Source of the DNA: a virus
Length of the DNA: 33,307 nt
Virus record (IMG/VR): IMGVR_UViG_3300036770_008723
Span: 1-33,307 of that record
Direction: 5' to 3' (one strand)
The notes below the pieces were generated by a model. The model made no database searches. It was not told the DNA's origin and saw only the letters and a list, made by a program, of their open reading frames with translations. Shown here one piece after another: positions 1-7,050 of this stretch. Position 1 is the first letter of the stretch. Each line of letters begins with the position of its first letter. The translations under genes and the position numbers were made by a program.

Positions 1-63
1 GGCGCGCACCTCGGTCTGCATGGCCTCACGCAGGCGGCCGAACACGGCGGCGCGGACGAACAT
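1..63 (-). CDS. 5' end of an unidentified gene running off the left edge
   Basis: A minus-strand ATG at 63 opens a frame of 21 codons (beginning MFVRAAVFGRLREAM) that stays open to the window edge. An AGGAA ribosome binding site sits at a suitable distance upstream of the ATG. If the prophage continues leftwards, this is where the tape measure or another tail gene would start. The few residues visible do not resemble a tape measure N-terminus that I recognise, so it may equally be a host gene. It is divergent from the nitrilase, with about 130 bp between the two starts. Confidence 0.45.
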   Translation of the reverse strand, partial: MFVRAAVFGRLREAMQTEVRA

Positions 64-193: not shown

Positions 194-1087
194 ATGAGCA
201 AGGTGCGTGTTGGCTTGGTCCAGATGGCGCTGAAGGCACCGACCTCGGCGCCGGTCGCAGAGATTCGCGACGCGATGAATGCCGCCCATGCCGAGCAGGT
301 GCGCCAGGCGGCGGAGCAGGGCGTGCAGGTGATCTGCTTCCAGGAGGTGTTCAACGCCCCGTACTTCTGCCCGGTGGCGGAACCGCGCTGGCTGGAAGCC
401 GCGGAGCGCGTGCCGGAAGGTCCAACGACGCAGCTGATGTGCCAGCTCGCCCGCAAGCACAGCATGGTGATCGTGGTGCCGCTCTACCGGCGCCACGATG
501 ATGGCCGCAAGACCAATACAGCCGTGGTGATCGACGCCGACGGCTCGGTCCTGGGCACGTATGAGAAGACCCACATCCCGACCATCGGCGCGCATCTGCA
601 TACGATGATCGGCAACGAGGAGCGCGGCACCGAGCGCTACTGGTTCGAGCCAGGGACCAAGGGGTTCCCGATCTTCCAGACGAGGTACCTGAAGCTGGGT
701 GTCTACATCTGCTACGACCGGCACTTCCCCGAAGGCTGGCGTGCCCTCGGTCTGGCCGGCGCCGAGTATGTCGTGAACCCCTCGGCGACCTGGAAGGGGT
801 TGAGCCAGCACCTCTGGACGCTGGAGCAACCGGCGGCCGCGGTAGCGAACGGGTTCTATGTCGGTGCCATCAACCGCGTCGGTGTCGAGGAACCCTGGGC
901 GATCGGCGAGTTCTACGGGTCGAGCTATGTGGCTGATCCGCGTGGCCGCATTCTGGCCCAGGGACCGGACGATCGCGACGCGCTGGTAGTGGCCGATATC
1001 GACCTCGATGTCGTCCGCGAGGTGAAGGCGACGTGGAAGTTCGACGAGCATCGCCGTCCCGAGACCTACGGCGCCCTCACGCGCTGA
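194..1087 (+). CDS. Nitrilase-superfamily amidohydrolase, beta-ureidopropionase-like
   Basis: A 297-residue protein covering a full carbon-nitrogen hydrolase domain. The catalytic triad is visible as Glu51 (in CFQEVFNAPYF), Lys125 (in YEKTHIP) and Cys173 (in YICYDRHFPE). Together with the VNPSATWKG segment these point to the N-carbamoyl-beta-alanine amidohydrolase branch, which releases beta-alanine, CO2 and ammonia in reductive pyrimidine breakdown; the substrate is inferred. The enzyme is cytosolic, with no signal peptide. The ATG at 194 follows a GGGGAG ribosome binding site. The gene is plus-strand and converges on the phage tail chaperone, overlapping its 3' end by 11 bp. It is either phage cargo or the first host gene beyond a truncated prophage. 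No other pyrimidine catabolic gene is in the window. Confidence 0.9.
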   Translation: MSKVRVGLVQMALKAPTSAPVAEIRDAMNAAHAEQVRQAAEQGVQVICFQEVFNAPYFCPVAEPRWLEAAERVPEGPTTQLMCQLARKHSMVIVVPLYRRHDDGRKTNTAVVIDADGSVLGTYEKTHIPTIGAHLHTMIGNEERGTERYWFEPGTKGFPIFQTRYLKLGVYICYDRHFPEGWRALGLAGAEYVVNPSATWKGLSQHLWTLEQPAAAVANGFYVGAINRVGVEEPWAIGEFYGSSYVADPRGRILAQGPDDRDALVVADIDLDVVREVKATWKFDEHRRPETYGALTR

Positions 1088-1990
1088 CCGACTGGCCGCG
1101 GAGCCGCGCCTCGCTCTCGACCATCTTGGCGTAGATCGTCCCAAGGGTGGCAAAGGCATCAACCAGCCACGCTGCCTGGTCACCCACGCCACCGGAGTCC
1201 GGCCAGTGGGCGATGCCGCCCTCTGGATCCCGGCAGGCCGCCCAGAGTCGGACGACGTCATGCCAGGCAGGAGGTACCGTCAGCCTGGGGTTGCCGCCGG
1301 TCCACGGCTCGCCGGCTACCATCCAGTCGGAGCCGTCCTCCGGCCTCAGCCCTCCGGCGAAGGCGTCTGGGTCTCGGGCGACGGCGAGGGCGCCGTGGAG
1401 TTTCCCTCCGCACTCCGGTCCAGCGATACCAGCAGGAACGCGCGCCAGCCCACGGCGGTGACTTCGCTCGTAGGCAGCACGTCGAGCAGGTCCTCCGGCA
1501 CCAGCCCCTTATCCCGCCGGAAGACCGGCAGCCCGGGACCATCCCAGCCGCGGAGTGCATGCCGGCACGCCACCCAGGGCGCCATGCCGGTCCAGCGTTC
1601 GCCGGCCGCGCGCAGCTCGGCATAGACCGGCACGTCCATGCAGGCGGTGATGATGACCGCGAGCCGCGCCTGCGCCTCCGCCAACTTGCTCTTGAGCGCG
1701 GCATCGTCCGACGTCGCGTCCACCGCCTCACGTGCCGCGTCAGCTTCGTCCACGACGGCGAGTGCCTCGTCGATGTTCGCCGGCGCGATCTCGCGCAGTG
1801 CGGCACGCAGGCCATTGCTGACGTCCTGGGGCGAAGGGCGCATGCCGGCCTCCCTCGCCAGCGCGGCGCGGAAGGCGATGCGTTCGCGGTAGGTGAGCGG
1901 CGCCAGCCGATACGTGCGCGGGCTACCCGGCGGCGTGAAGGCCACAAGGTCGTATGCCGAGAACACCGGCGGTGCGGTCATGCCATCCAT
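1077..1990 (-). CDS. Tail assembly chaperone, -1 frameshift product (gpGT-like)
   Basis: The 214-residue frame starting at 1990 and the frame ending at 1077 are related by a -1 shift. They meet at a canonical heptamer GGGAAAC (1406 down to 1400), read as G GGA AAC in the zero frame. After slippage the new frame is open from 1400 to 1077 and gives a 304-residue product: 197 residues shared with the short form plus 107 new ones. In lambda and many siphophages this position, between tail tube and tape measure genes, carries the G/GT frameshift at GGGAAAG. A plain annotation would call 1077-1322 (81 residues from an internal ATG) a separate hypothetical gene. However, 26 open codons lie upstream of that ATG, which favours the fusion. 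The 3' end overlaps the convergent nitrilase. Confidence 0.75.
1346..1990 (-). CDS. Tail assembly chaperone, short form (gpG-like)
   Basis: A 214-residue protein whose gene starts 40 bp downstream of the tail tube stop, in the lambda gpG position. It begins with a short beta-rich stretch (residues 8-32), then is mainly helical and charged, ending in a Pro/Ser/Thr-rich tail (PSPSPETQTPSPEG) translated when no frameshift occurs. The ATG at 1990 is preceded by AGGAG at 7 bp; a second in-frame ATG at 1981 is possible. The family role is to coat or chaperone the tape measure protein during tail assembly. The assignment rests on position, length and the frameshift site rather than on a sequence signature. 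Confidence 0.72.
   Translation of the reverse strand: MDGMTAPPVFSAYDLVAFTPPGSPRTYRLAPLTYRERIAFRAALAREAGMRPSPQDVSNGLRAALREIAPANIDEALAVVDEADAAREAVDATSDDAALKSKLAEAQARLAVIITACMDVPVYAELRAAGERWTGMAPWVACRHALRGWDGPGLPVFRRDKGLVPEDLLDVLPTSEVTAVGWRAFLLVSLDRSAEGNSTAPSPSPETQTPSPEG
1400..1406 (-). promoter_or_regulatory. Programmed -1 ribosomal frameshift site GGGAAAC
   Basis: On the minus strand the heptamer reads GGGAAAC, with GGA and AAC in the zero frame and GGG and AAA after slippage. This is the X XXY YYZ form. A short GGCG/CGCC stem can be drawn about 5 bases downstream, but I see no convincing pseudoknot; the lambda site also works without an obvious one. Confidence 0.75.
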
Positions 1991-2029
1991 GATGGAGCTC
2001 CTGGAAGTGTTGAGGATTGGGCGGGGCGA

Positions 2030-3196
2030 TCAGAACTGCGCCAGGTAGAAGGCGCTGTCGGCGCCATCGCCCTGGAACCCGATGCCGTGCTGACCGAGGC
2101 CGTCACGCTGGCCGGGGTCCATGCCGATCGCCTTGGCGTTGGGGACGATGGCCACGAAGCGATTGCCAGGCGTGCTGCCGATGATCGCCATCAGCGACAT
2201 CGACGTCCCCGCCCGGAAGGCGTTGAACAGCGCCACCGAGTTGGTGGTGTTCATGTAGGGATCGAGATTGCCGGCGACGTCGCGCTCGATCGGCAGGGCA
2301 GCGCCATAGCCCTCCGCACTCTCCGGATCGTCCGGGAGGATAACGTTGACCCCGGCGTTGATGGTCAGCGTGCGCACCTGGGCCAGCGCCCTGTTGAGCT
2401 GGCACTTGCCGCCCACGAAGCGCGGCGGCGTCGGACGGAGTACAGCCGCGGCCCCGGCCGGCACTGCAGTGGCGGTCTTGCTGGCGAACTGGGCGCGCAT
2501 CTCGAAGGTGATGAAGCCGATGCCGCCGGTGGTCAGTTCGAGCGAGGCGGTGCCGAGCGCCCCGGTGAAGGTCCAGAGCAGGCCGTCGGCGTAGAAGTAG
2601 ATTGTCGCGGTCCTATAGACACTCTCGTCCGAGGTCGGGCTGTAGAGCACGTTGATCGGAATCTGCAGCAGGCTTCCGGTGGTGAACGGGGTGCCGCGCG
2701 TGTCACCGATGGTGATGACCCGGGCGGCGGTGTAGTCGACGATCCCCGTGGTGCAGGCCTCGATGCCGGTGACGATCAGCGGCATGCCGCGATACTGCTG
2801 CGCGTTGGTGCCAAAGGGCGTGGCGGCGGTCACGGTCGTGGTGGTGCCGGCGGTGGCCGCGGTGGGCGCGCCGACGGCGGTGGCGGTCACCAGTTCGGAG
2901 AATGTGCAGCAGCGCAGCAGCTTGCCGAAGTCCGGCGCGGTCCCGGCGGTGCCGGAGCCGCGCAGGGGCATGCGCAGGCGCAGCCGTGGCTTGAGGCCGC
3001 CGACCACCGAGGATGCCTTGTCGAGCGAGCCGGTGAGTTCGGGCAGTTCGATGATGGTGGGATCGAACTGCACCTCCATCTCGGACGCTATCCAGTCCGC
3101 GGCCACGGGTGTGCCGCCAATGGAGTCAGTGCCGGGTGCCACCTCGATCTTGGCCGCGACCGCGGCGAACTTCATGCGCACGAGGTTCGTACTCAT
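2030..3196 (-). CDS. Phage tail tube (major tail) protein
   Basis: A 388-residue protein without membrane segments, rich in Thr, Gly and Ala and in beta-strand-like stretches. It resembles long-form siphophage tail tube proteins of alphaproteobacterial prophages (opening MSTNLVRMKFAAVAAKIEVAPGT, then alternating polar and hydrophobic strands). It lies between the tail terminator gene and the frameshifting chaperone, the expected place. The ATG at 3196 follows an AAGG ribosome binding site. Its size is about twice that of a minimal tube protein, suggesting an added surface domain. The family is inferred from position and composition; no catalytic motif is expected. Confidence 0.82.
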   Translation of the reverse strand: MSTNLVRMKFAAVAAKIEVAPGTDSIGGTPVAADWIASEMEVQFDPTIIELPELTGSLDKASSVVGGLKPRLRLRMPLRGSGTAGTAPDFGKLLRCCTFSELVTATAVGAPTAATAGTTTTVTAATPFGTNAQQYRGMPLIVTGIEACTTGIVDYTAARVITIGDTRGTPFTTGSLLQIPINVLYSPTSDESVYRTATIYFYADGLLWTFTGALGTASLELTTGGIGFITFEMRAQFASKTATAVPAGAAAVLRPTPPRFVGGKCQLNRALAQVRTLTINAGVNVILPDDPESAEGYGAALPIERDVAGNLDPYMNTTNSVALFNAFRAGTSMSLMAIIGSTPGNRFVAIVPNAKAIGMDPGQRDGLGQHGIGFQGDGADSAFYLAQF

Positions 3197-3233
3197 GGGC
3201 AGGGCCTTTCAGATTGTGCGGAGGAGCCGCGGC

Positions 3234-3686
3234 TTAGGGGAGGTAAGGGGAGCCCAGGGGCGCGATGGCGAGCATGGTGAACCGGACCAGGACCTCGCCG
3301 GCCGGCTTGGTACTCTCGTCGGTGTCGTAGAGCCGGAACTCCGCACCCTGCTCGGCGACCTCGCCCAGGCCGTCGATCGCGGGCGTCCAGCCGGCGAGCG
3401 TCGCGACGAGTGACGCATGCAGCGCGGACAGCCCCTGCTCAACGCCGAGGTCCGTCGTGTCTCGGACGTAGCCGGCCACGGCGAAACCCAGGCTGTAGTG
3501 GGTGCTGCCGGGTTCGGCACTCTCGTCCGCCTCCCAGTCGGTGCCGGTGAGCACCAGCCGGGGCAGCGGCTCCTTGTCGGTGTCCACCGGGGCACGGCGC
3601 GCGCGTTCCAGCACGACGCCAGGCAGTTCGGCAGTGAGGCGGTCGGCGATCGCCGCCAGTGCCGCCTCGCGGATGGGAATCAGCAT
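3234..3686 (-). CDS. Tail terminator-like (gpU-like) protein
   Basis: A 150-residue protein opening with a helix (IREAALAAIADRLTAELPGV), followed by strands and a terminal strand pair. This is the pattern of small phage proteins that cap the tail tube and join it to the head. It lies directly between the head-tail joining protein and the tail tube gene. The ATG at 3686 is preceded by GGAGG at 7 bp, and the upstream stop is at 3689, so the two genes are tightly coupled. The role is inferred from gene order and size. Confidence 0.68.
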   Translation of the reverse strand: MLIPIREAALAAIADRLTAELPGVVLERARRAPVDTDKEPLPRLVLTGTDWEADESAEPGSTHYSLGFAVAGYVRDTTDLGVEQGLSALHASLVATLAGWTPAIDGLGEVAEQGAEFRLYDTDESTKPAGEVLVRFTMLAIAPLGSPYLP

Positions 3687-3688
3687 GG

Positions 3689-4006
3689 TCAGACCTCCGC
3701 CAGAATCAGACGCCAGGACAGGCCGAGCGCGTCACGCTCTGCGTCGTCGACGCGGTACACAATGCCGTTGAGCAGCACCTCGTCGCCGCGTTGCGGTTCC
3801 AGTGGCGCGATGTCACCGGCGAGGATGGTGGCGGCGATGCTGCCGGCTCGGGTGCCGAGGCCTCCCAGCCCGCCGATGCTGTCGGTGGGACTGGACAGCA
3901 CGACACGGGCCGGGACCCAGGGACCGGGTGGTCGGCGGTAGTCGGCCGGCGTGCCAACGTTGGTGTCGGCATGAATGGCGGCAAGCGCCTGTGCGAAGGC
4001 CGACAT
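3689..4006 (-). CDS. Head-tail joining protein
   Basis: A 105-residue protein ending in LNGIVYRVDDAERDALG followed by a short hydrophobic strand. This matches small head-tail joining proteins (lambda gpFII-like beta-barrels), where a DEVLLNG.VYRV strand is common. The ATG overlaps the TGA of the M15 peptidase gene (TGATG), indicating translational coupling. I chose this start because a longer frame upstream, to 4156, only reads antisense-like sequence through the peptidase gene. The function is inferred from its position between capsid and tail genes. Confidence 0.7.
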   Translation of the reverse strand: MSAFAQALAAIHADTNVGTPADYRRPPGPWVPARVVLSSPTDSIGGLGGLGTRAGSIAATILAGDIAPLEPQRGDEVLLNGIVYRVDDAERDALGLSWRLILAEV

Positions 4007-4416
4007 CAGTCGGTCCCTGCTGGATATGCATCGCGGTTGAGCTCGAAGTGCGGCCCGTCCCGGAATCGCGGCCAGTCGCCGCCCCAGACCAGGGCGATGC
4101 CACGAGCCTGCGCCGCGTCCTTCATCGCCTTGGACATGGGGTAGAACAGCGGCCAATCCCAGCGGACCTCGCCATCGACCGTCGGCGCGAGATCGACGGC
4201 ATGGCCAGTCAGGTGCCGGCTATCCATGGTGCGGCTGGCGCCGGACTTCACCAACTGCGCCTGGCGCTCACGGGTGCGCAGTCCCTCCACCACGATGAAG
4301 GGCACCAGCTGGCGGGCGGCCTCGACCACCGCCACCAGATCTGGATGCACGCCGGCGAGTCGGGTGTGGTCGCGGGCGGACAGCAGATCGGCCGCTTTGG
4401 CAGTAGCGACGACCAT
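4006..4416 (-). CDS. M15-family peptidase, likely endolysin
   Basis: A 136-residue peptidase of the D-alanyl-D-alanine carboxypeptidase / L-alanyl-D-glutamate peptidase type. Zinc-binding motifs are visible: S66-R-H68-x-x-G-x-A-x-D75 and, near the end, WGGDW...PHFEL with His123. This is a compact, single-domain phage form without a cell-wall binding domain or signal peptide. It probably cleaves peptidoglycan stem peptides at lysis, after release by a holin, or locally during DNA entry. It sits inside the head gene block, 3 bp from the DUF2190 gene, rather than in a lysis cassette. The ATG at 4416 is used. Confidence 0.87.
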   Translation of the reverse strand: MVVATAKAADLLSARDHTRLAGVHPDLVAVVEAARQLVPFIVVEGLRTRERQAQLVKSGASRTMDSRHLTGHAVDLAPTVDGEVRWDWPLFYPMSKAMKDAAQARGIALVWGGDWPRFRDGPHFELNRDAYPAGTD

Positions 4417-4418
4417 GA

Positions 4419-4760
4419 TCAGGTTCCCGCCGGCGTGGAGCCGGACAGGCGGACGCGCGCGGTGGTGTCGGCCGAGGCCGCGGCCACGACGGCGTGGCCG
4501 ATGGCGACGTTGCCTGTGGCCGTGGTGGTCACCCGCTTGTTGGTGTTGTCCCAGAACACCCGGGCGCCAACCGCGATCACCAGCGGTGCTTCCTTGGTGA
4601 TGTCGAACACGCCGTTCACTGCCACCTCGGCAGAGACGCCGGTGAGCGCATCGACGGCGACGACACCGAACAGGGCGCCGACCAGCACGCCCTGGCCGGA
4701 GGTGCGGTCGTAGGGCATGGGCAGAAGGACCGAGAGGCCCGGCTGGACGAAGGTCTTCAT
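4419..4760 (-). CDS. DUF2190 capsid decoration protein
   Basis: A 113-residue beta-rich protein with the DUF2190 pattern: the N-terminus MKTFVQPG.SV, a middle FGVVAVDALTGVSAEVAVNGVF.I.K, then V..G..VFWDNTNKRVT and A.G.AV.AA...T..VRL. Family members sit on or beside the major capsid protein and stabilise the shell. The gene follows the capsid gene directly in the transcription direction. GGAGC lies 8 bp upstream of the ATG at 4760. Confidence 0.88.
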   Translation of the reverse strand: MKTFVQPGLSVLLPMPYDRTSGQGVLVGALFGVVAVDALTGVSAEVAVNGVFDITKEAPLVIAVGARVFWDNTNKRVTTTATGNVAIGHAVVAAASADTTARVRLSGSTPAGT

Positions 4761-4860
4761 GCTGTGGAGCTCCAGAAACGCGACGGGCGACCCGAAGGCC
4801 GCCCGTCCGCGAGACGATGAGGATGGAGAGGATGATCAGCCGGCCATCGATGGCGCGGGC

Positions 4861-6939
4861 TCAGGTGCCGGGGTTGAACCAGGCACCGCGCCAGTCGATG
4901 GCCCCCACGCCGAAGTCGAAGATCACCGAGACCTCGACGCCGTCGACGCCGGACACCGGTCCGGTGGTCACCTGCGGCCCCTCGGCGCCGTTGAGGTAGC
5001 CGTAGACATAGACCGGTGCCGAGAGCGGATCGGAGAACAGATACCATCGGTTGGTGGGAATCAGCGGCTCGACCAGCGGCTGGATGAAGCCGGAGAAGAC
5101 GTTGGCGTTGCTGGTCTGAGTGGCCTGCACCGAGACCGTCAGCTGTCGGGCCGACAGCTCCTGGTTCGGCCCCACCAGCAGCGTCATGCTCGAGCCGACC
5201 GAGATCGGCAGGCCATCGAGCGTCTTCTGCTTCATCACCGCGGCACGGCCAGCCGCCAGGTTGGTCAGGTCCAGCGCCGTACCGGAGGACGCCTTGTTGG
5301 TCCGGGCAGCGCCGGTGGCGAACACCGCCGTGGCACCGGTGGTGAGCGTCGGGCCATCGCCATTGGCGCTGTTGAGCAGGCCATAGGCGGTGACGTTCTC
5401 GAAGTCCGCCACGCGGCGGCCGATCATGGCAGCGAAGTCGGTGAACGCGCCGAGATCGTCGTTCACCAGCATCGGCCTGGTCACCCGGATGCGCCGGGCG
5501 AAGGTGGTGAGCGTCACCAGTTCCTGGCTCTCGGACATGGTGCCGGCCTGGATCTCGCCGCTTTCGGACAGCGGCACCAGGTTGGGGAAGTCGCCAACGC
5601 GCAGGTGGCGATGCGGCTTGAAGTCGCGGAAGTCGCGCCGCAGGAAGATCTGCCGGTAGGTGGGGTTGGCGGGGGCGTAGGCGGCCAGCAACATCTTGTT
5701 GGCCGCAGCCGAGAGCAGCAGCGGGAAGTCGCTGGTGGTCTGGAAGGCGCGCTCGGCCAGCTTGGCGGTGTCGCGCGGGATGTTCCGCTCGCCGCGGGCG
5801 CGCATCAGCTCGGCCACCATCTCGGAGGGTCGCCAGCCCAGGAACTCGGCGTGGCGGCCACCCGCACCACCGGCGGCCTGGTATCCGGGCATGGCGCGTA
5901 CGGCCAGGGCCTCGGCCATGGCGTCACGGATGATCTCGGGATCCTGGGTGGCGGGGCCGGCGGCCGGATTGGCCGGCAGCGTCGGCGGTGCGGTTCGGCC
6001 CCGCTGGGCGAAGGCATCCCAGAGCCGGCCGCGCAGCACGTCGGCGGAGACGCGCTCGCGGATGGCGGCCTGACGCTGGGCGTCGATCTGCTCGTCTGGC
6101 AGCAGACCGCGGGCCGCGGCCAGGACGGTCTCGTAGCTGGTGATGCGCTCCACCGCCGCCCGCTCGGCCTCGGCGCGCACGGCGTCGAGATCGGGGGCGG
6201 CGGCGGCCGATGCCGGCAGAGAAGCCGGTGCAGGCGTGGCGGGCGCATCGGGGGCGGTGGGCATGGTGGTGGTGTCTGCCGGGTCCGGCATGGTCGTCTC
6301 CTGGGTGATCGTAGGGGCGGGATCGGGGATGGCCGGCTCGATGGCCGGCACCGTCGGGGTGTCACTGGCGCCGCGCACGGCGGCGGCTGGGTCGACCGGC
6401 AGCGGCACGACGGAGATCTCGTACGGCTCCCAATCAACAGCGCGGTGGATGGTGCCGACGAGGAGATCGGGGATCGGCTCATAGCGATGCACGCGGTAGC
6501 CGACGCTGACGCTGCGCAGGGTGCCGTCCGCGATACGCTGCCAGAGCGGCTCGACGTCTGCTGCAGAGGAGAACTGGAGGGTGGCGATGCCGCGGCCGGC
6601 TTCGAGGCGGGCGGCGATCACACGTCCCACGACATCGCGTGCATCGCCGCTGCGGTGGGTGTTGAGCACCGGGGCGCCACCACCGACCAATCCCTGCATG
6701 CGCACCGCGTTCGGCGACATGTCGAGTTCCTCGGTGATCAGGCCGAGCGGCGGCACGTAGTTGCGGGCACGAGCACCGGTGGACCACACCACCTCGACGG
6801 TGCGAGCAGCTCGATCGACCGTGGCTGGTGCCGAGACGGCCCGCGCGGCGGTGATCGATTGCCCACCGGCGGAAAGTCGATCGACATGCGTCGTCGCCGG
6901 CGCGGGATCACTCCCGCCCGGATCGATGGGTTCTGGCAT
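4861..6939 (-). CDS. Prohead protease-major capsid protein fusion
   Basis: A 692-residue polyprotein. The N-terminal part (about 30-190) is an HK97-type prohead serine protease with His95 in VLNTHRSGDARDVVGR and the serine segment LRSVSVGYRV (143-152). A Pro/Ala/Thr-rich linker follows (about 185-255). Next is a helical, charged delta or scaffold region (about 250-350). The C-terminal half is an HK97-fold capsid protein (FPLLLSAAANKMLLAAY, a central RIRVTRPMLVNDDLGAF stretch, and an end typical of capsid C-termini). I chose the ATG at 6939, with GAAAGG upstream, over a GTG at 6987 lacking a good ribosome binding site. An internal ATG at 6291 has its own strong ribosome binding site, so the capsid part is probably also made separately. 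Confidence 0.92.
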   Translation of the reverse strand: MPEPIDPGGSDPAPATTHVDRLSAGGQSITAARAVSAPATVDRAARTVEVVWSTGARARNYVPPLGLITEELDMSPNAVRMQGLVGGGAPVLNTHRSGDARDVVGRVIAARLEAGRGIATLQFSSAADVEPLWQRIADGTLRSVSVGYRVHRYEPIPDLLVGTIHRAVDWEPYEISVVPLPVDPAAAVRGASDTPTVPAIEPAIPDPAPTITQETTMPDPADTTTMPTAPDAPATPAPASLPASAAAAPDLDAVRAEAERAAVERITSYETVLAAARGLLPDEQIDAQRQAAIRERVSADVLRGRLWDAFAQRGRTAPPTLPANPAAGPATQDPEIIRDAMAEALAVRAMPGYQAAGGAGGRHAEFLGWRPSEMVAELMRARGERNIPRDTAKLAERAFQTTSDFPLLLSAAANKMLLAAYAPANPTYRQIFLRRDFRDFKPHRHLRVGDFPNLVPLSESGEIQAGTMSESQELVTLTTFARRIRVTRPMLVNDDLGAFTDFAAMIGRRVADFENVTAYGLLNSANGDGPTLTTGATAVFATGAARTNKASSGTALDLTNLAAGRAAVMKQKTLDGLPISVGSSMTLLVGPNQELSARQLTVSVQATQTSNANVFSGFIQPLVEPLIPTNRWYLFSDPLSAPVYVYGYLNGAEGPQVTTGPVSGVDGVEVSVIFDFGVGAIDWRGAWFNPGT
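6289..6302 (-). promoter_or_regulatory. Internal ribosome binding site and ATG inside the protease-capsid gene
   Basis: On the minus strand AGGAG (6302 to 6298) is followed by 6 bases and then an in-frame ATG at 6291, which begins MPDPADTTTMPT. Initiation here would give a 476-residue scaffold-plus-capsid protein without the protease domain, as in the nested C/Nu3 arrangement of lambda. The start falls at the linker between the two domains. Confidence 0.6.
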
Positions 6940-7050
6940 GTCATTTGCCTTTCGAGCTTGGTGTCTTGGCCCTGGGAGGTCTATCACTGCCAGAAATATC
7001 CTGACTTGACCCCGAGCGAATCTTCGTCGCTCAGGATAAGAGGTTTGGCC

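Follow-up and report, generated by a model that had tools for sequence, protein, structure and literature searches.

The question raised by the window analysed here, the entire IMG/VR record IMGVR_UViG_3300036770_008723 of 33,307 bases, is whether two overlapping reading frames on its minus strand encode two proteins, or one protein and its frameshifted extension. The first, G (1346–1990, minus strand), is the zero frame of a putative tail assembly chaperone and runs for 214 residues from the ATG at 1990 to a TGA; it contains the slippery heptamer GGGAAAC (1400–1406, minus strand) in the phase G_GGA_AAC, at codons 196–197 of 214. The second, T (1077–1400, minus strand), extends for 107 residues in the −1 frame beyond the slip, giving a predicted GT product of ~304 residues. 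An earlier note, made from the letters of the window, had proposed that a tail assembly chaperone gene carries a lambda-type −1 frameshift site here. Judging from the comparative sequence evidence set out below, we put the probability at roughly 0.94 that the gene is a tail assembly chaperone of the lambda G/GT type, with GT made by programmed −1 frameshifting. The mechanism itself is already known from phage lambda, and the site in the window is a fresh example of it.

The zero-frame codons at the site are GAG (1408–1406), GGA (1405–1403), and AAC (1402–1400), and the −1 frame reads GGG AAA CTC and onward with no stop until 1079–1077. Past the heptamer the zero frame continues for 17 Pro/Ser-rich residues, overlapping the −1 frame (1346–1399, minus strand), and then stops; this tail is missing in a distant clade of relatives, where the stop follows the heptamer immediately. 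The end of the −1 frame, from 1322, can also be listed as an open reading frame (ORF) of 81 residues resembling a separate gene, the ATG of which (1320–1322, minus strand) is not conserved. Between 1400 and this first ATG lie 26 codons, encoding LHGALAVARDPDAFAGGLRPEDGSDW. The phase of the heptamer required by the earlier note (G_GGA_AAC, at 1406–1400), its −1 frame open from the heptamer to 1077 (stop at 1079–1077), and its 26 open codons ahead of the first ATG of the 81-residue frame (1400 to 1322) were all borne out when read directly. The fusion it predicted, SAEGN followed by LHGALAV, is the junction expected for a tandem slip, and was refined to the extent that the junction would be SAEGK-LHGALAV if the P-site tRNA alone slips.

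In the proposed mechanism, most ribosomes would complete G (214 residues), while a minority would slip one base back on G_GGA_AAC and read the −1 frame to yield GT (~304 residues). By analogy with lambda, where roles for gpG and gpGT are described in the G/GT model (PMC5009743, available in part), the G part may serve to coat the tape-measure protein and its T extension to recruit the tube protein. Frameshifting in tail chaperones more generally is treated in PMC10885494 (also available in part).

Conservation of the heptamer and selection in the −1 frame

A profile built from an alignment of 11 G members (A3) found 65 loci among viral contigs, of which L091 and L107 were excluded because of contig ends; an in-phase heptamer is present at the homologous place in 63/63 loci reaching the site. 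These include L112, whose profile match broke off 13 codons short of the site, with the heptamer in exactly the expected place. A scan with a T profile (alignment A2) gave 40 loci, all with an in-phase heptamer (40/40), and a third scan (alignment A5) gave 60, mostly on contigs already found, with the heptamer in 59/59 after omission of L193, where the match fell short of the site. In the unconditioned G- and T-profile loci the heptamer is always GGGAAAC or AAAAAAC.

These scans were not keyed to the heptamer, since the peptide patterns used do not span it, although A2 and A3 were partly built from pattern-search rows conditioned on it: the 20 conditioned loci (L017–L036) enter no conservation count, and some of them served in A2 and A3. 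Excluded from all site counts were L013, which matches for 26 residues and then diverges, and L006, which matches for 91 residues up to a contig end. As one sign against its proposal, the earlier note had named close relatives with both frames intact but the heptamer gone; none was found among the loci reaching the site (63/63 and 40/40), and the frameshift reading was not refuted.

For the site counts below, loci derived from A2 and A3 were pooled with the window and with six loci from assembled genomes, identical surroundings being counted once, to give 60 distinct sites (33 AAAAAAC and 27 GGGAAAC); the codon-choice count would skip any site with <150 surrounding bases. Nearly all the relatives are environmental contigs, the genome matches being to assemblies named Acetobacteraceae, Rhodospirillales, and Asaia.

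In-phase heptamers of the form X_XXY_YYZ occur twice in 1857 codon positions of the window (seven minus-strand ORFs taken as genes, 1346 to 6987). The other instance, a GGGTTTC within the ORF for the tail terminator, was taken as the control; it is kept in 1/51 distinct homologues among the fetched loci. The slip site at 1400–1406 thus exceeds chance, being retained as GGGAAAC or AAAAAAC in 63/63 and 40/40 loci.

The choice of synonymous codons at the 60 distinct sites points in the same direction. The slip-site glycine is encoded by GGA in 27/27 cases, compared with 19/376 of the glycine codons upstream in the same frames, and the slip-site lysine by AAA in 33/33, compared with 6/77 upstream. 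The preceding codon ends in G at all 27 GGGAAAC sites and in A at all 33 AAAAAAC sites.

Variability by codon position was measured in 35 distinct sequences (36 loci). Upstream of the heptamer, variability peaks at the third position of the zero frame (0.23/0.25/0.32 for positions 1–3); past it, the maximum moves to the third position of the −1 frame, both in the overlap (0.09/0.11/0.22) and beyond it (0.16/0.16/0.37). Within the overlap the mean identity of the −1 translation is 0.745 versus 0.582 for the zero frame, and beyond the overlap there are 29 stops in the zero frame and 0 in the −1 frame. These patterns indicate that selection acts in the −1 frame, beginning with the heptamer. The slip site is judged to be real and itself under selection, in a putative chaperone family that is absent from the libraries searched.

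The alternative that survives best, although we consider it very improbable, is that T is a gene in its own right, whose translation begins at the ATG at 1322 or follows from reinitiation past the G stop. The ATG of the window does lie only 23 nucleotides (nt) past that stop, and the T homologue of an isolated phage, MinM1, was deposited as a separate hypothetical protein. However, an ATG occurs within −1 codons 0–29 at only 4/60 distinct sites, the window included, and at 20/60 the −1 frame lacks any ATG, GTG, or TTG between its upstream stop and codon 29; at L084 a −1-frame stop stands directly ahead of the heptamer. In most relatives the ATG at 1322 is replaced by CTG, TTG, ATC, or another codon, in agreement with the earlier note, which had held that the 81-residue frame is not a gene of its own. 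The most conserved stretch of the −1 frame falls among the residues ahead of the window ATG (LRGALAVARDP...), the run LRGALAVAR standing directly after the slip, and a separate T gene would leave the invariant heptamer unexplained. The −1 frame thus overlaps G, stays open, and lacks a conserved start.

Transcriptional slippage at a base run, changing the frame in the RNA, is slightly less probable still. It could draw on the runs of 6 or 7 A at the AAAAAAC sites (33/60), but all 27 GGGAAAC sites, that of the window among them, have the same architecture with no run of A or G longer than 3, and it is disfavoured because a common mechanism must also work on these run-less sites. The weakest alternative, a frame broken by sequencing error or by a one-base mutation (a pseudogene) with the heptamer incidental, might be entertained for a single record, which by itself cannot distinguish a −1 site from an indel, but is practically negligible given that the overlap and the heptamer are seen again at 60 distinct sites, drawn from many contigs and assembled genomes, and in an isolated phage, and that in the distant clade the heptamer is followed at once by a stop (20 listed sites).

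The GGG or AAA state of the heptamer changes at least 4 times on the best tree by parsimony; the number of such switches is unsure, because well-supported branches force only 1. One relative, L081, has two in-phase GGGAAAC heptamers in one and the same frame, the second lying 45 bases (15 codons) before the conserved one. This locus lies on a 92-kb contig (IMGVR_UViG_3300036770_007174) with two different G/T loci (L077 and L081), whose G proteins are ~94% and 54% identical to that of the window. At L013 (2447–2524) only the first 26 residues of the G gene follow the family, and unrelated sequence appears to interrupt it there.

Points of doubt: protein identity, RNA structure, and AAC

Several observations weigh against a frameshifted chaperone of the lambda type. 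The first concerns protein identity: library searches gave no usable Pfam, PHROG, or NCBIfam match for G, T, or family members, and the structure model of G (AlphaFold2; predicted local distance difference test score (pLDDT) 89, predicted template modelling score (pTM) 0.76) has no fold match in the PDB or BFVD at E ≤ 0.001. The name chaperone therefore rests on position and frameshift architecture. Second, in the group of relatives to which the window belongs no conserved stimulatory structure was found downstream of the heptamer (mean z −0.1 to −0.5). Third, the 60 sites share ancestry, and the counts overstate independence because the sites are related. Fourth, the AAAAAAC group favours GAA over GAG anyway (199 versus 105), so the GAA before its sites is partly expected. 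Fifth, both GGGAAAC and AAAAAAC belong to a class reported as low-efficiency in E. coli (PMC4066793, available in part). Finally, that ribosomes slip here, how often they do so, and what G and GT do are inferred from sequence.

The best match of the G model in BFVD by Foldseek is an unnamed phage protein (E 0.057), and names of the kind "tail assembly (chaperone)" appear only at E 0.4–1.8. VIA-align returned helical bundles with Z at most 6.7, which were taken as a common arrangement only and not as an identity for G. The T model is of lower confidence (pLDDT 64, pTM 0.39). A tblastn search of the window G against the phage collection gave no match, and no paper on the G/T family was found in the open-licence literature, most subscription papers lying outside that search.

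Stimulatory RNA elements are present at many, though not all, programmed frameshift sites. In the window, a 6-base-pair hairpin is predicted 3 nt past the heptamer (1381–1396, minus strand) and is unsupported as a conserved stimulator; the downstream fold of the window itself has z −0.16. An alifold consensus of 32 distinct sequences of its group gives near-zero energy over a 50-nt stretch and a weak −3.7 kcal/mol in longer ones. A GGCG/CGCC hairpin was considered as a conserved stimulator and rejected: it is paired in 89.4% of cells, yet 241/500 shuffles equal that. In the distant clade (L116–L140; 20 listed sites, 17 distinct), where A_AAA_AAC is followed at once by a stop codon, a stable two-part stem of 10 base pairs is predicted from 6 nt past the heptamer (mean z −2.9; L121, z −3.6). 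Nine of its ten pairs are invariant, and because these never vary, covariation, checked for helix 1 only, speaks neither for nor against this stem.

Heptamers of the form X_XXA_AAC, although of low efficiency in E. coli, are very likely used by bacterial insertion elements, according to the part of PMC4066793 available. The exclusive use of heptamers ending in AAC is one point of some interest in this family, and is confounded by the −1-frame leucine codon that starts at the C of the heptamer (CTC at 38 sites, CTG at 15, CTA at 5, and CTT at 2, of 60). The final C as a feature selected for slippage was accordingly set aside as inseparable from this conserved codon. It is a tentative and rather unlikely suggestion that the lineage frameshifts only on eukaryote-like X_XXA_AAC (X = G or A), with GGG and AAA swapped several times while the site stayed slippery; its probability is modest because the leucine codon could instead hold the C invariant. 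If it were true, host ribosomes or tRNA-Asn might tolerate re-pairing from AAC to AAA better than those of E. coli or, alternatively, the P-site tRNA alone might slip, giving junctions GK or KK instead of GN or KN. The idea that hosts lacking queuosine at position 34 (Q34) of tRNA-Asn slip better on AAC was unsupported, the TGT family being present in 3/5 host assemblies of relatives; the two assemblies with no TGT match may be incomplete. As the family uses only AAC-ending heptamers, it offers a natural test in other bacteria of the slippery-site rules drawn from E. coli, which MinM1, being an isolated phage, makes practical.

Comparison with known systems

The heptamer of phage lambda is G_GGA_AAG. 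The window resembles the lambda gpG/gpGT system in having a −1 frame with no start of its own and a G_GGA_AA core. It differs in the third letter of the A-site codon (G in lambda, C in the window), in that its G and T have no detectable sequence relation to a described family, and in that one small gene and, in some members, also a CN-hydrolase gene stand between GT and the tape measure. The description of the heptamer as lambda-type in the earlier note is supported, but had passed over its ending in C, unlike lambda's G, and its membership of the class of low efficiency in E. coli (PMC4066793, the available part).

Among isolated phages, Synechococcus phage MinM1 (ON981384) has a T homologue that is 42% identical (E 1e-9) and a tube homologue that is 41% identical. 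Its G shows weak similarity to the family G over 78 columns (hhalign probability 54.5). Read across the record ends, MinM1 G terminates in A_AAA_AAC_TGA while T occupies the −1 frame, and G so differs from that of the window in having no zero-frame tail; in the deposited annotation, G is a misc_feature up to the record end and T a hypothetical protein apart from it. The MinM1 genome is probably circularly permuted, because its G gene spans the ends of a record (ON981384.1) deposited as linear.

In Pseudanabaena phage Pan1, Pan1_31, annotated as a pre-tape measure chaperone, ends in G_GGA_AAC_TGA with an open −1 frame. The order tube, chaperone, tape measure is shared and the Pan1 tube is a distant relative of that of the window, whereas comparison of Pan1_31 with the G of the window family detected no homology (hhalign probability 0.1). 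The pre-tape-measure chaperones of Caulobacter phages use AAAAAAC in phiCbK and GGGAAAC in Colossus (PMC3556154, available in part); both heptamers, the gene position, and the alphaproteobacterial host are alike. The g-t gene pair of the haloarchaeal virus HCTV-1, a tail gene pair in an archaeal host, has the identical heptamer G_GGA_AAC (PMC5009743, available in part).

Members of the G/T family occur in assemblies of Acetobacteraceae and Rhodospirillales, on environmental phage contigs, and in one isolated cyanophage. The frameshift reading would give a functional name to two linked frames that the libraries leave unrecognized, and would allow GT to be annotated as a single fusion rather than as a pair of hypothetical genes.

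Genomic context

Upstream of G/T lie genes for a tail tube protein, a terminator, head closure (PF05354), an M15 endolysin, and a protease-capsid fusion. The tube gene (2030–3196, minus strand; phrog_290, E 4e-10), a homologue of the Pan1 "tail tube protein" at 26.9%, stands just upstream of G, in keeping with the order of tube followed by chaperone gene given in the earlier note. At the other end, the start of the next tail-operon gene (MFVRAAVFGRL...; 1–63, minus strand) is truncated at the record end; the homologous gene in L008, with a match to phrog_6367, stands ahead of the tape measure. In L008 and L016, T is followed by a small tail-operon gene and then by the tape measure (phrog_3336, E 4.5e-56 and 7.5e-56), and the order in relatives is tube, G/T, small gene, tape measure, with the tube found upstream in the window and the tape measure in L008 and L016. 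The tape-measure gene falls outside the window because the record ends first. The lambda-like gene order claimed earlier therefore stands as regards the tube, whereas the position of the tape measure beyond the record end and an intervening CN-hydrolase gene were missing from it.

This CN-hydrolase gene (194–1087, plus strand; PF00795, E 7.5e-62) stands after GT and ahead of the next tail gene, and is not part of the frameshift. Its best NCBIfam match is TIGR03381, N-carbamoylputrescine amidase, at 200 bits, below the 410-bit cut-off of that model. It is encoded on the opposite strand within the tail operon, and its 3′ end overlaps the end of T by 11 bases. The gene was not found in other relatives such as L008, L010, and L011, and is present at the same place in L002, L003, L004, L005, and L007, being 95–99% identical in these five. 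Among the head and connector genes, the M15-type endolysin gene (4006–4416, minus strand) overlaps the head-closure ORF as listed from a TTG start (3689–4156).
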